Source: Arthrobacter oryzae (lineage in GTDB: Bacteria; Actinomycetota; Actinomycetes; Actinomycetales; Micrococcaceae). From it: DNA of 64,000 bases. Of this stretch, positions 53,053 through 58,360 are shown piece by piece. The translations under genes were made by a program, and so were the position numbers. Location: positions 1,116,001-1,180,000 of the forward strand of contig NZ_CP132204.1 in assembly GCF_030718995.1 (NCBI RefSeq), read 5' to 3'. The notes beneath the pieces are model-generated. The model saw nothing but the letters and a program-made list of their open reading frames with translations. It was not told the origin of the DNA and did not search any database. Numbering within the stretch: position 1 is the first letter of the stretch; each line of letters starts with the position of its first letter.

Positions 53053-53071
53053 CCCCCCCCCCCCCCCCCCC
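53053..53071. repeat. Run of 19 cytosines
   Basis: Uninterrupted C19 tract 15 nt after the bcp stop codon and directly beside the first copy of the 32-bp array. Such runs are slippage-prone both in cells and in sequencing, so the exact length may vary. Confidence 0.85.
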
Positions 53072-53229
53072 GACGCTCTCTCACTTTTGACCCGTTTCGG
53101 GGCGACGCTCTGTCACTTCTGACCCGTTTTGAACAGACGCTCTCTCACTTTTGACCCGATCCGGGGCGATGCTCTCTCACCCAGGTGAGAGAGCATCGGT
53201 GCTTAAGCCCCCGGTAGTGAGAGAGCGTT
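53072..53229. repeat. Mirror repeat array 1 (32-bp pitch, 4 forward and 2 reverse units)
   Basis: Forward cores GACGCTCTCTCACTT (one G substitution at 53104, GATGC at 53168) start at 53072, 53104, 53136 and 53168, exactly 32 bp apart. The last core turns into a hairpin (arms 53168-53181 and 53184-53197). Reverse-oriented cores then end at 53197 and 53229, again 32 bp apart. The 17-bp linkers TTGACCCGTTTCGGGGC, CTGACCCGTTTTGAACA and TTGACCCGATCCGGGGC are also related. Confidence 0.92.
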
Positions 53230-53317
53230 GCCGTGGGCACGGTGTTCGTGGTCATGCCGGATCCAGTCATGCCGGATCCATGGGGCATGCACAGGAACGG
53301 CACAGCCGGCCCGGGGA

Positions 53318-53827
53318 CTGTTGAAGGGACCCGGCCAGAACTACTACCTCTGGTACAGCCTCGAAACCAAGAAGATCTCCGTCATCTCCTGGGACCTGAA
53401 CCTGGCCATCACCGGCAATGCCACAGCTTCCCCGGATGAGCAGGTGTCCATCGGCGGCGGGGGCGGAGGCGGCGGGATGCAGCGGCCTCCGGGAGCGGAC
53501 GACGACGGCGGCGCACCGCCGTCGGGGGCTGCCCCGCCGGACGCTGCGGCCGGTTTGGACGCCGGTGCCGATGCCGGCGGCCGGGGCGGCAACGAACTGA
53601 AGGAGCGGTTCCTGGCCTCAACCGCGTTCCAGTCCGTTTATAACACCGCCTATGCGGAGCTTTATGAACAGCTGTACAGCAGCGGGACCGCCGCCGGCCT
53701 CCTCGACCGGCTCGCCGCCGTCGTGCCTGCCAGCGACGGCCTCACGGAAGTGGAACTCGCGGAGCAGACCGCAACGTTCCGGAAGTTTATTGAGGAACGC
53801 ACCGAGGCCCTCAAAAACCAGGTCTGA
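53318..53827 (+). pseudogene. CotH-like kinase-fold protein, C-terminal remnant
   Basis: The reading frame contains LLKGPGQNYYLWYSLETKKI then SVISWDLNLAITGN, the conserved C-terminal part of the CotH kinase-like domain, followed by a Gly-rich insertion and a helical tail (NELKERFLASTAFQSVYNTA, LDRLAAVVPASDGLTEVEL). Only about 165 residues remain; the catalytic N-terminal part is absent and the sequence before 53318 is unrelated. The nominal start at GTG 53228 has no ribosome site and yields Cys/Ser-rich nonsense. The gene was probably truncated by the event that placed repeat array 1. Confidence 0.72.
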
Positions 53828-53848
53828 CTCCCCGCACGTTCCAGCCGG

Positions 53849-53949
53849 ACCCTCTCTCACTTCCTGCAACAAAAACCGGAACCGTCTCTCACTGTCTTGA
53901 CGAAAGTGAGAGAGGGTTCCGGTTTTTTGGGTCAAAAGTGAGAGAGCGT
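53849..53949. repeat. Mirror repeat array 2 (32-bp pitch, 2 forward and 2 reverse units)
   Basis: Forward cores ACCCTCTCTCACT and ACCGTCTCTCACT start at 53849 and 53881 (32 bp). Reverse cores AGTGAGAGAGGGT and AGTGAGAGAGCGT end at 53917 and 53949 (32 bp). It sits between the convergent cotH remnant and deacetylase gene. Confidence 0.92.
53871..53928. terminator. Strong bidirectional terminator in array 2
   Basis: 23-bp inverted repeat (53871-53893 and 53905-53927) with one mismatch and an 11-nt loop. The left arm begins AAAAACCGG and the right arm ends CCGGTTTTTT, so each direction has an A-lead/stem/T-tail arrangement. It separates convergent transcripts. Confidence 0.85.
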
Positions 53950-53957
53950 CCCTGGGG

Positions 53958-54923
53958 TTAGAGGCGGGACCGGTCGGAGGCCAGTGCCGGCTGGCGCACC
54001 TGGGCCGGGGTGAAGCGGGCTCCGGCGTCGGGGAAGCCTGGCACCTCGATGCGGGCGTGGCTGTGGACCTCGGTGACGGTGTCCCGCGTGTGCTCGGCGA
54101 TCTTGGCCATGGTGGTGACCCACATGCCGTCCATGGCCTTGACCCGGCTGATCAGCTGTTCCAGGGCCACGGCCTTGGAGGGCCGGCCGGAGATGAACGG
54201 GTGGTTGGTCAGCACGAAGCAACTCCCGGCCGCATGGTGGGCCTCCGCCTCCAGCATCCACATTTCCAGGACCTTGGCGGGGCTTTCGATCACTCCGCTG
54301 CCGGTAACCCCGGGGTAGAAGGCGTACTGCTCCCAGTCGTCCAGCGCCCAGTCCACCGGGATTTCCACCAGGTCCCGGGAATCGCCCTCGGCGACGCTGA
54401 AGCGGTACGGCGCGTCGCCGTCGAGCAGGCTGGAATCGTAGAGGAAGCCGCGGTCCGCGAGGAGCGCCGGCGAGTGCCAGTTCAGCTCCCACCAGGGAGC
54501 GCGGTAGCCCACCGGCCGGACGCCGGCGACCTTGGCCAGTGCCTCCAGCCCGCGGTCGATGTACCGCGCCTCGGTGGCGGCATCGATCCCCTGCATGGGT
54601 TCGTGCAAGTAGCCGTGGTGGGCGATCTCATGGCCCGCGTCCACGATCCGGCGTACCACATCCGGGTAGCTTTCGGCCGTGAATCCGGGGATGAAGAAGG
54701 TTGCCTGCACGTCCTGGCGGTCCAGGATCTGCAGCAGCCGCGGCACCGCGACCTTGGGCCCGTAGGACTGGTGGGTCATGAGGGACATCCGGCGCGTGCT
54801 GGTGGGATCGTGAGCGATGGTGCATGACTCCGCATCCACATCGAACGTGAAGGATGCGGCCGCCCGGTAACCTTCGGGCCAGGAGATGGGATGGGCGGAG
54901 TCCGGGAAACCGGGGAATTCCAT
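53958..54923 (-). CDS. Polysaccharide-deacetylase-family hydrolase
   Basis: 321 residues from ATG 54923 (AGAAAGGAAAAC upstream). NodB-type fold: first Asp in TFDVDAESCT, metal histidines in GHEIAHHGYLHEPM (H-x-x-x-H), then RAPWWELNWHSP, DSSLLDGDAPYRF, and LTNHPFISGRPSK near the end. The family includes peptidoglycan and chitin deacetylases and also the cofactor-free allantoinase PuuE. Its position directly after an NCS1 purine/allantoin-type permease and near PucR favours an amide/ureide hydrolase, but this is inference. No signal peptide, so it acts inside the cell. Confidence 0.85.
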   Translation of the reverse strand: MEFPGFPDSAHPISWPEGYRAAASFTFDVDAESCTIAHDPTSTRRMSLMTHQSYGPKVAVPRLLQILDRQDVQATFFIPGFTAESYPDVVRRIVDAGHEIAHHGYLHEPMQGIDAATEARYIDRGLEALAKVAGVRPVGYRAPWWELNWHSPALLADRGFLYDSSLLDGDAPYRFSVAEGDSRDLVEIPVDWALDDWEQYAFYPGVTGSGVIESPAKVLEMWMLEAEAHHAAGSCFVLTNHPFISGRPSKAVALEQLISRVKAMDGMWVTTMAKIAEHTRDTVTEVHSHARIEVPGFPDAGARFTPAQVRQPALASDRSRL

Positions 54924-54938
54924 GGTCCGTTTTCCTTT

Positions 54939-56492
54939 CTAGAGTGAGATGGCGGTGGGTGCCGGGCGGACTGCCGCTTCAGTGGGGGCCGCTTCAGGGG
55001 CGGCCGCTTCCTGGGCGGCTACCGGGACCGGAGCGGATCCGGCGTGGGCCAGAAATTTGCGGTGGACCCGGGGCCCGAGAACCGCGTAGCTGACGGCGCT
55101 GCTGACTCCGCCGGCCAGCCAGGACAGATCCCAGCCGCCCAGGGCCACGGCGATGGGGCCCTGCATGGCGGGGACAAGTCCGTACATGAACAGCCAGGTG
55201 GAGAAGATGCCCACCAGGAGCGATACGATGCCCGCCCAGTTGACGCCGGGGAGGCGCCTGGTGCCCACACCGTCGAAGAGGCGTGCGGTCTCGCCGGGCC
55301 AGCGCTTCTCGATCCAGAAGTAGTGCACCAGCATCACGCCGCCCCAGGCAGCCACCCAAGCCACGAGGCCGATCAGCCAGGCGTCCAGCACGGCGGCGAA
55401 ATCCTCCTGGAAGATGAAGAAGACGACGGCGATCAGCGAGAAGACGCCGACGAAGAGGTTGAGCTTGCGGCGGCTGATGGTGATGTCAAGTGCCTGTGTG
55501 GCAACGGAGAAGGTGTAGATGTTCAGGATGTTCGTGGCGATGGGTCCGTGCAGGACCATCAGGAGGACAGGGAGTGCCAGGACACCGAAGTTCTGGACAA
55601 TGAGCTTTCCGGGGTCAATCTCGCCGCTGTTGGTGGCCAGGCTGGCACCAAGGATGCCGAGCCAGACGACGGGGATGAACTGGCCCAGGACTGAGGCGAG
55701 GTAGACCTTCTTCTTGGGCACTTCGGTGCTCACGAAGCGGGAGTAGTCGGCGGCGTAGGTGAACCAGGTGATGCCCCAGCCGATGCCGATGGCAGTCATG
55801 ACAGCGCTCATCGCGGCGATCCGCTCCGACCCTTCAAGGATGTTGCCGGCAGGACCGGCGTAGCCCCAGTCGATCTTCATGCCGAACCAGGCGACGGCGG
55901 ACATGACAGCAAGAATGATGATGGTGGGCGGCACTGTCCACTTTTCAAACGCTGCGATGGCCTTGTAGCCGAACCAGGCGATGGCTACCTGCGCGGCCAT
56001 AATGGCCGTGGCCACGCCGATCTTCCACGCATAGTTCTGCGCTGTCGGATCAACCCAGCCAAGGGTACCGAACAAGGCCATGACCAGGTCGAGGATGATC
56101 CAGGTGTTGACAGCGCACCAGCCGATGACCAGCAACGCCTGGATGGCGGCGGGCAGGTAGTTTCCGCGCCTGCCGAATGCTGCCCGGGCGAGCACCATGC
56201 CCGTGGCCCCGGTCTTCTGGCCGAGCAGGACGAAGCAGCCGAACAGCAGCATTCCGATCAGGTTCCCCAAGACCAGAACGGTGACCGTGTCGGCAAAGCC
56301 AAGGCCCAGGTGGATGCCCAGTGCGCCGAGCACCCAGTTGATGGGTGCGAGGTTGGCGCCTGCCCAGATCCAGAACTGCCCGGACACCTTCCGGGTCCGC
56401 TGGGATTCGGGGATGGGCTGAAGCCAGGCTTCGACGTCTTCGCCGGCTACGGGCGCTTGGCCGGCCGGTGCTGCAGTGGAGTTGTTATGCAT
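54939..56492 (-). CDS. NCS1-family purine/cytosine/allantoin-type permease
   Basis: 517 residues from ATG 56492 with a GGAGG site. About 12 membrane helices with NCS1 features: N-terminal RKVSGQFWIWAGANLAPINW, then GLGFADTVTVLVLGNLIGML, GATGMVLARAAFGRRGNYLP, and later FTYAADYSRFVS. It probably imports a purine, allantoin, hydantoin or pyrimidine base with sodium or protons. It is divergent from a PucR regulator and 15 nt upstream of the deacetylase-like hydrolase gene, with which it is likely cotranscribed. Confidence 0.9.
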   Translation of the reverse strand: MHNNSTAAPAGQAPVAGEDVEAWLQPIPESQRTRKVSGQFWIWAGANLAPINWVLGALGIHLGLGFADTVTVLVLGNLIGMLLFGCFVLLGQKTGATGMVLARAAFGRRGNYLPAAIQALLVIGWCAVNTWIILDLVMALFGTLGWVDPTAQNYAWKIGVATAIMAAQVAIAWFGYKAIAAFEKWTVPPTIIILAVMSAVAWFGMKIDWGYAGPAGNILEGSERIAAMSAVMTAIGIGWGITWFTYAADYSRFVSTEVPKKKVYLASVLGQFIPVVWLGILGASLATNSGEIDPGKLIVQNFGVLALPVLLMVLHGPIATNILNIYTFSVATQALDITISRRKLNLFVGVFSLIAVVFFIFQEDFAAVLDAWLIGLVAWVAAWGGVMLVHYFWIEKRWPGETARLFDGVGTRRLPGVNWAGIVSLLVGIFSTWLFMYGLVPAMQGPIAVALGGWDLSWLAGGVSSAVSYAVLGPRVHRKFLAHAGSAPVPVAAQEAAAPEAAPTEAAVRPAPTAISL

Positions 56493-56600
56493 GGGGGCCT
56501 CCGTAGGGGGAATGGGGATACGTCCAGATTATGTGTTCCAAGCCACACCCAACAAGATACGATGTGTATATCAGAACCGTCCTTTGCGTTACGGAGCGTC

Positions 56601-58211
56601 ATGCCAATCAAGCTCGATGAAGTCCTGAATCACGCCACCCTCACGGCCGCGGATCCGGTGATCCGCGCCGGTGCCGCCGCAGTGGCCGGTACGCAGTTGC
56701 GGTGGGTGCACTCCAGTGAGGTTTTGGACATCGCACCTTTACTTAGCGGCGGTGAGCTGCTCCTCACCGGCGGCGATGCGCTGGTCACGGCCTCGGACGC
56801 GCGCCGCGTGGAGTACGTGCGGCAGCTCGCTGAGCGCGGGGTGGGCGCGCTGGTGGTGGAAACGGGCCAGCGGCTCGCTTCCCTTCCGTCCTCCATGGTG
56901 CGGGCAGCGGAGGAAGCCGGGCTGCCCCTCATTGAGTTCCGCAAAGTGGTGCCGTTTGTGGGCATCATGCAGGCCATCAACTCCATGCTGGTCAGCGAAT
57001 CAGTGACGCACCTTCGCCGCGCTGACGAGGCCAGCCACGAAATGGCCGTTGAACTGGCCCACGGCAGCAGCCTGGACCAGATCCTTGCCGTACTGGCCGG
57101 CATCATCGGCGCAACGCTGGAGCTTAGGTCCGTGTCCGGCGTGACGCTCGGCAGCGCGGGTCCCGAAGGCGCTGGCCCCGGCGGCGCCGGCTCACCGCCG
57201 GAGGACGCCGGATCACGGCCGGAGGACGCCGGCCACGGTTCGGTCTCCGAACACCAGCCCGGCACAGAGGGGCACGGAACTGACGGCGCCCTGATTAACA
57301 TCGATGTGCCGGTCCGCGGCGTGCCGTCGGCCAGGCTGATCATCAACGTCCCGGCCGACGGCGACGTCAACCTGGCGCGCGTCGCCGGCGGGCGGTGCGT
57401 GGATATCCTTTCGCTCGCGCTGCTGCAGCGGATGCCGCCGGGGCTGAAGGAAGTGGCGGGGACGGCACTGTTGCGGGCAGTCAGTTCCGGCAGCCAGCCG
57501 TGGCGGCTCCAACAGCTCTCCCCCGCCGCCGGGATTCCGGCCGCCGCAACGATGGTGGCCGTCGTCGTCCGGACCTCCACGTCACAGCAATTGCGGGCAG
57601 CCATGGACAAGATCCTGAAGAGGACGGCCCAGCAGAGCGCCAGCTACGTTGACAACGCGGAGCTCCTGGCGCTTGCGGCCCTGCCGTTTGACGGGGCGGC
57701 GGCGGCCCGGACCGAACTCGTGTCCGCCTTGCAGGAACTGCCGGTTGAACCCGGAACGATGACGGCGGTTGGCCCGCTGGCGGCCGGAATCGAAGACGCA
57801 CCGTGGTCGCTGTCGGAGGCGAAGATTGCCCTGGACCTTGCCTCGAGCGGGACGCTGACGGCGGCGGTGCCGCCTTCGGACACTGACGGTGTGGTGCTCG
57901 ACGTCGAAAATCTCGCCGTGGAGCGGTTGGCGGCGCAGCACCTGGGCCAGGGCCCGCGGCAGGATTTTGTCCGCCGGCAGCTGGGACCCGTGCTGGACCA
58001 CGACGCCCGGCGGAACTCCCGGCTGCTCCAGACCCTGTCCATCTGGCTCGACTCGGGCTGCAATACAGCGCAGGCCGCCCGGGAACTGCATGTGGAGCGG
58101 CAGTCCATGCACCACCGGCTGCAGCGGATTTTTGAGTTGTGCGGCGGCGATCCGCGCGGGTCCGGCCGGCTCGCCGCGCTGCACCTGGCCACCCGGCTGG
58201 CCGCGTTGTAG
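56601..58211 (+). CDS. PucR-family transcriptional regulator
   Basis: 536 residues from ATG 56601. The N-terminal PucR domain (residues 1-125) has LRWVHSSEVLDIAPLLSGGE then LLLTGGDALVTASDARRVEY. A Gly/Pro/Ser-rich linker lies near 195-240 (several PPEDAG-type repeats). The C-terminal HTH_30 (residues about 480-530) reads SIWLDSGCNTAQAARELHVE then RQSMHHRLQRIFELCG. PucR-type proteins control purine and nitrogen catabolism. The open frame upstream to 56310 overlaps the divergent permease gene and is not used. Likely regulates the permease-hydrolase pair. Confidence 0.9.
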   Translation: MPIKLDEVLNHATLTAADPVIRAGAAAVAGTQLRWVHSSEVLDIAPLLSGGELLLTGGDALVTASDARRVEYVRQLAERGVGALVVETGQRLASLPSSMVRAAEEAGLPLIEFRKVVPFVGIMQAINSMLVSESVTHLRRADEASHEMAVELAHGSSLDQILAVLAGIIGATLELRSVSGVTLGSAGPEGAGPGGAGSPPEDAGSRPEDAGHGSVSEHQPGTEGHGTDGALINIDVPVRGVPSARLIINVPADGDVNLARVAGGRCVDILSLALLQRMPPGLKEVAGTALLRAVSSGSQPWRLQQLSPAAGIPAAATMVAVVVRTSTSQQLRAAMDKILKRTAQQSASYVDNAELLALAALPFDGAAAARTELVSALQELPVEPGTMTAVGPLAAGIEDAPWSLSEAKIALDLASSGTLTAAVPPSDTDGVVLDVENLAVERLAAQHLGQGPRQDFVRRQLGPVLDHDARRNSRLLQTLSIWLDSGCNTAQAARELHVERQSMHHRLQRIFELCGGDPRGSGRLAALHLATRLAAL

Positions 58212-58225
58212 CCAGGCATGGCAGG

Positions 58226-58360
58226 GACGCTCTCTCACTTAACGCACGAAAAAACGGGACGCTCTCTCACTTAACGCAGAAAAAGCCGGGACGCTCTCTC
58301 ACTTCCCCCAAAGAAGTGAGAGAGCGTCCCGGTAGGACCGGCAGGAAGTGAGAGAGCGTC
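58226..58360. repeat. Mirror repeat array 3 (32-bp pitch, 3 forward and 2 reverse units)
   Basis: Forward cores GACGCTCTCTCACTT start at 58226, 58258 and 58290 (32-bp steps). The central part is a perfect 20-bp inverted repeat (58286-58305 and 58313-58332, 7-nt loop). Reverse cores end at 58328 and 58360 (32 bp). It separates convergent pucR and purU and probably also terminates both. Confidence 0.92.

Follow-up and report, generated by a model that had tools for sequence, protein, structure and literature searches.

We found that short arrays of a direct repeat with a 32-bp pitch, three of which lie in the 64-kb stretch of DNA analysed here (hereafter called the window), look from their sequence and placement like an undescribed kind of gene-end signal that would stop transcription. 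Their position, their polarity, their replacement by other hairpins in some relatives and the covariation of their stems make gene-end signals, most likely transcription terminators, the simplest reading. The preliminary description of the window knew of no named family with this geometry, and in the open-access literature we likewise found no paper on the motif and no family that combines its features. Three observations go beyond that description: each arm is polar on its own, as seen in one-sided arrays; the core carries a species-specific word, or dialect; and the sites are conserved across changes of that word.

A search for the core GACGCTCTCTCACTT with up to 3 mismatches yielded 14 matches in the window, against a mean of 1.4 and a maximum of 4 in shuffled sequences, and all 14 sit inside the three arrays (Table 1). 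An additional core with 4 mismatches is present at 53880-53894, in array 2. The core coordinates, the 32-bp spacing, the unit counts and the location at 3' ends, including those of convergent pairs, had all been read correctly in the preliminary description. The central hairpins that it reported are real as well, with a predicted fold of -99.7 kcal/mol for array 3 (z -9.5). The array 2 hairpin has a U-run when read on the + strand, and an A-run supplies another for the - strand.

Table 1. Arrays of the 32-bp repeat in the window and their parts (window coordinates).
Feature	Position	Strand	Description
Array 1, 4+2 units	53072..53229	.	Behind bcp-type peroxiredoxin gene (stop 53037), 34 nt gap
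Array 1, left arm	53072..53182	+	Cores at 53072, 53104, 53136, 53168; RACGC-TCTCT-CAC along the bcp mRNA
Array 1, right arm	53183..53229	-	Core ends at 53197, 53229
Array 1, central palindrome	53168..53197	.	GATGCTCTCTCACC / GGTGAGAGAGCATC, compensatory C-G to T-A change
Array 2, 2+2 units	53848..53950	.	Between CotH-like remnant (+, stop 53827) and polysaccharide deacetylase gene (-, ends 53958)
Array 2, hairpin	53870..53928	.	Long stem, AAAAACCGGAACC to GGTTCCGGTTTTTT
Array 3, 3+2 units, exact cores	58226..58360	.	Between pucR (+, stop 58211) and purU (-, ends 58385)
Array 3, central hairpin	58285..58333	.	Stem CCGGGACGCTCTCTCACTT / AAGTGAGAGAGCGTCCCGG

In genomes G035 and G058, the bcp and deacetylase genes are direct neighbours with a single array between them. 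Arrays 1 and 2 thus look like one ancestral site, split here by a stretch that contains the remnant of a CotH-like gene (53228-53827) and that was probably gained in this genome, perhaps by recombination between arrays. Of note, a run of 19 C residues (53053-53071) abuts array 1 and is perhaps prone to slippage, unless it is a sequencing artefact.

Across species, the core follows the consensus RACGC-N5-CAC, and the linker behind it has a conserved YT. According to position counts, the unit in the window's genome reads RACGC-TCTCT-CAC-TT plus 17 bp of linker, in which a G is conserved and a 4-bp A/T block accepts either A or T. When cores were located without reference to their spacing, the distance between neighbours was exactly 32 bp for 362 of 397 pairs, with 21 more at 31 or 33 bp and 11 at 64 bp. 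Between arrays of one genome, identity is 0.86-0.99 in the cores and only 0.46-0.62 in the linkers; the pitch is therefore maintained despite linker drift, and the far higher identity of the cores points to selection on the core. A single core is not self-complementary, and formation of a hairpin requires two opposed units. Mirror arrays have a preferred geometry at their centre, with 13 nt from CAC to GTG in 43 of them. The 13-15-bp core, the often duplicated 17-bp linkers and the mirror arms do not support a CRISPR array, which would have long repeats and unrelated spacers.

The window's genome (G000, 4.65 Mb in one contig) harbours 69 exact cores and 110 cores at up to 1 mismatch, and the reversed control gave 0. 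Mapping after retrieval of the core regions yielded about 37 arrays; some are mirror arrays, others are one-sided with 2 to 6 direct units, and one-sided arrays also occur as opposed pairs located 0.1 to 1.1 kb apart. Lone cores are nearly absent, as only 1 of the 65 exact copies listed had no near neighbour. We searched other genomes with a spaced pattern (core, linker, core), as the preliminary description had proposed, and found the 32-bp geometry to be kept across the genus: when the dimer pattern was relaxed, it matched in 77 of 93 genomes and its control gave practically no matches, and relaxing it further uncovered more core words. Outside the genus, 1 of the 32 sampled genera of the family has arrays, with a word of its own. 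The motif is thus neither confined to the window nor deprived of its geometry elsewhere, as a local duplication would be. Copy numbers vary between species from 0 to over 200 dimers; G012, G042, G044 and G053 are rich in arrays, and G005, G007, G014, G043 and G080 have none. In the window's genome, nearly all mapped arrays are found at 0.30-2.56 Mb of the contig, in one half, with two beyond 2.56 Mb; in other species, the arrays do not look so confined.

Such variation in copy number, together with the dispersed and intergenic distribution and the palindromic form of mirrored arrays, could indicate a small mobile repeat of the REP or MITE type that inserts at gene ends. We hold this to be extremely improbable, given that a search of the G000 genome for a Y1/RAYT transposase (PF01797) gave no match although its positive controls did, that linkers differ between copies, that sites at orthologous gene ends are common to different dialects, and that the motif is hardly ever found in phages and plasmids. 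A REP/RAYT origin was rejected on the non-palindromic unit and the lack of a PF01797 match in the genome, with which a REP element without RAYT is still compatible. A phage or plasmid origin was also rejected, with no match in phages, 2 weak ones in plasmids and 2 viral contigs.

The placement of the arrays relative to genes was analysed for 123 arrays in 8 genomes, drawn from the matches listed by the searches, with approximate gene calls made by a simple codon-usage script. All 123 arrays fall outside predicted genes, and the gap between stop codon and array has a median of 10 nt (IQR 3-38). Convergent gene ends make up 55 of 117 array sites, compared with 53 of 371 other gaps (odds ratio 5.3, p 2e-12), and divergent gaps are depleted in arrays. 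Forty-one arrays are truly one-sided, with no mirror partner within 150 nt. Where these are found between tandem genes, the mRNA reads RACGC...CAC in 14 cases out of 16. The gene-sense polarity of all one-sided arrays is 57:17, but we relied on the tandem ratio of 14:2 because convergent sites, which are part of the larger set, cannot fail the test.

At seven of the 41 truly one-sided arrays the flanking genes are divergent, so that no gene ends there; these seven and the two reversed tandem arrays count against the model of a dedicated reader presented below. Two arrays at divergent sites, one upstream of the gene for a LacI-type regulator and the other upstream of that for a sugar-binding protein, occupy the same places in G000 and G012. 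Those upstream of the LacI-type regulator gene (L040:2950-3117 and L174:7396-7559 in G000 and G012) are each written in their own dialect, and there is no gene end on their sense side. Among the proteins encoded beside divergent arrays (LacI regulators, menD, a sugar-binding protein and a CobW-like protein), which we considered as possible self-regulated readers of the arrays, no common factor recurs across genomes, and we found no candidate for the reader.

Mirror arrays form a stable hairpin at their centre, with 11 of the 22 pairs of the stem changed on both sides. The covariation score of this stem was reached by 0 of 500 shuffles and is above that of every slid register. The T-run after the hairpin is longer on strands with a gene ending there (mean 2.4, n=46) than on the others (mean 1.0, n=14; p 0.002). 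Nevertheless, it amounts to only 0 or 1 on 16 of the 46 gene-ending strands, and the many hairpins without a good U-run likewise count against the model presented below. The strong, covarying hairpin and the longer T-runs on the appropriate strand, as well as the presence of other hairpins at the same site in relatives without arrays, would be expected of plain intrinsic bidirectional terminators, in which only the hairpin would matter, the additional units would result from tandem slippage and the words would have spread by gene conversion. We consider this explanation unlikely. The 41 truly one-sided arrays have no such hairpin because they lack a mirror partner within 150 nt; the arms in G063 and G073 have no unusual RNA structure, and the linkers have diverged whereas the 32-bp pitch and the outer cores have not.

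The end of purU illustrates how the form of the array varies between species with the orientation of the neighbouring gene. Where the neighbour is convergent, the array is of the mirror type; where it is tandem, the array is one-sided and in the purU sense, as in G073, G063 and G068, which harbour purU-sense units only at this site. Relatives with a convergent neighbour and no array at this site (G033, G075, G066, G083, G032, G046 and others) carry an unrelated, strong hairpin there, with a helix of 16-28 bp, as a result of which the purU end is likely a terminator position in the genus that is filled by different means. That species without arrays carry other hairpins at the site is also pertinent to the comparison with MITEs. 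We noted a second dispersed hairpin family, TTCGATGGTTCCCTGC, with 7 to 15 matches per genome in G066, G032 and G083; members of this family sit at the purU end of species without an array there.

The N5 word of the core is uniform within each genome, as one word or a pair of words, and differs between species. It is TCTCT in G000 and G057, TCCCT in G035, YCGCT (T/CCGCT) in G012, SCGCT (G/CCGCT) in G051, SCCAT (C/GCCAT) in G070 and G003, KTCCT (G/TTCCT) in G002, and TCCNG (with T, A or C at the fourth position) in the other genus of the family. Comparisons of flanking genes showed that 9 of 15 arrays in G051, 6 of 10 in G070 and 3 of 6 in G003 occupy sites shared with G000. Three sites in or near the window (bcp/deacetylase, pucR/purU and a regulator gene near contig position 1184158) have TCTCT in G000 and TCCCT in G035. 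At purU, one linker is still similar between these dialects (GCAGGAAAAACCGG in G035, GCAGAAAAAGCCGG in G000), and this single case therefore suggests that the core word changed in place and not by replacement of the array. In principle, a concerted change of the cores could also arise without a co-evolving reader, by gene conversion or re-insertion. In the bcp/purU array of G002 (L217:3159-3316), both inner cores have changed together to ACGCTCCTGCA, which is close to the word of the other genus, and the hairpin is still paired.

The DNA uptake sequences (DUS) of Neisseria likewise use a uniform word in each species and form inverted pairs where genes end (PMC3630211), and the arrays might by analogy be a watermark for DNA uptake or recombination that differs between species as dialects and came to reside at gene ends. 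This is in our judgement very improbable, as units number from tens to a few hundred and not thousands, arrays contain at least two units at fixed pitch, none is found in genes, and their strand is biased with respect to the gene. The open-access literature yielded no report of uptake sequences in Arthrobacter.

Termination by Rho is another mechanism to be weighed, since Micrococcaceae possess this factor. The sense arms would then be repeated rut sites, C-rich, G-poor and loosely structured. In agreement with this, the C/G ratio of sense units is 1.3-3.8 compared with 1.0-1.4 behind other genes and is higher in 8 of 8 genomes, and the arms are polar and little structured, the mean fold z of one-sided arms being -0.7. 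However, Rho requires neither a fixed word nor a 32-nt pitch, G057 and G039 show only a slight skew, the word GCGCT of G051 cannot be called pyrimidine-rich, and the changes of word throughout genomes are left unexplained, so that we regard Rho-dependent terminators as a decidedly unlikely account of the arrays. Rho as the sole explanation is weakened by the words GCGCT and CCGCT.

We propose instead, with the chances in our view evenly balanced, that the arrays are polar gene-end elements, that is, terminators or 3'-end boundaries read by a co-evolving, sequence-specific factor. An element would consist of at least two direct copies of the 32-bp unit just behind a stop codon, with the core reading RACGC...CAC on the mRNA. 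Each arm would end the transcription of the gene running into it, as a terminator or a 3'-end boundary, because the putative factor would bind the cores cooperatively. Two features, the A/T block that accepts either base and the rigid pitch, which equals three helical turns, speak for a factor that reads double-stranded DNA and not flexible RNA, and once bound this factor would represent a phased roadblock to RNA polymerase. Between convergent genes, two arms would stand head to head, with the innermost cores pairing into a long hairpin that would add ordinary intrinsic termination in both directions. Co-evolution of the factor with its sites would generate species-specific words at conserved sites, and a sequence-specific reader would account for the word, the pitch and the concerted change of words.

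More specifically, and more tentatively, the arrays may represent a protein-dependent, polar bacterial terminator whose putative factor would bind DNA cooperatively, its sites following one another at intervals of three helical turns, and word and factor would have changed together several times in the genus while the sites stayed in place. Among the roles envisaged in the preliminary description, the terminator block and the protein-binding array are both favoured by the position, the polarity, the covariation of the hairpin, the 32-bp pitch and the co-varying words; the small mobile repeat is not. If correct, our proposal would define a class of terminators that are neither simple hairpins nor degenerate Rho sites and that possess a reader of their own. 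Dialects that differ while the sites stay fixed would amount to a natural experiment in which a regulator co-evolves with about 100 sites at once, and the ends of transcription units of Arthrobacter-type soil bacteria would become readable from sequence genome-wide.

Regarding known systems, no Rfam family matched above its curated score, the only matches being at chance level and far under the cut-offs. The arrays share with bidirectional intrinsic terminators the position between convergent genes, a GC-rich hairpin and some U-runs on the correct strand, but they differ from them by their direct 32-bp arms, the hairpin-less cases and the species-specific word. Like rut sites, they are C-rich, G-poor and polar and are located behind stop codons; unlike rut sites, they have a fixed word, an exact 32-bp pitch, an A/T block and dialects. 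REP/BIME elements with RAYTs are similarly intergenic, dispersed and often near gene ends, whereas the unit described here is not palindromic, has no RAYT and is found at conserved sites. The DUS of Neisseriaceae come in species dialects, are found at gene ends as inverted pairs and number thousands of copies, some of them inside genes (PMC3630211). The arrays resemble them in having one word per species, part of which is invariant, and inverted pairs at gene ends. We found a genome-wide word with species dialects, but not the high-copy single or in-gene copies of DUS, as indicated by the 69 exact cores in 4.65 Mb, and the report on DUS describes no pitched arrays. Finally, termination by RNA polymerase I involves TTF-I and Sal boxes. 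According to one report, Pol I terminators combine a roadblock protein with an RNA hairpin (PMC12366685). They are eukaryotic, whereas the reader protein of our arrays is putative; the repeated, polar protein sites behind genes, assisted by an RNA hairpin, would make Pol I terminators a working analogy for the arrays, with no claim of homology.
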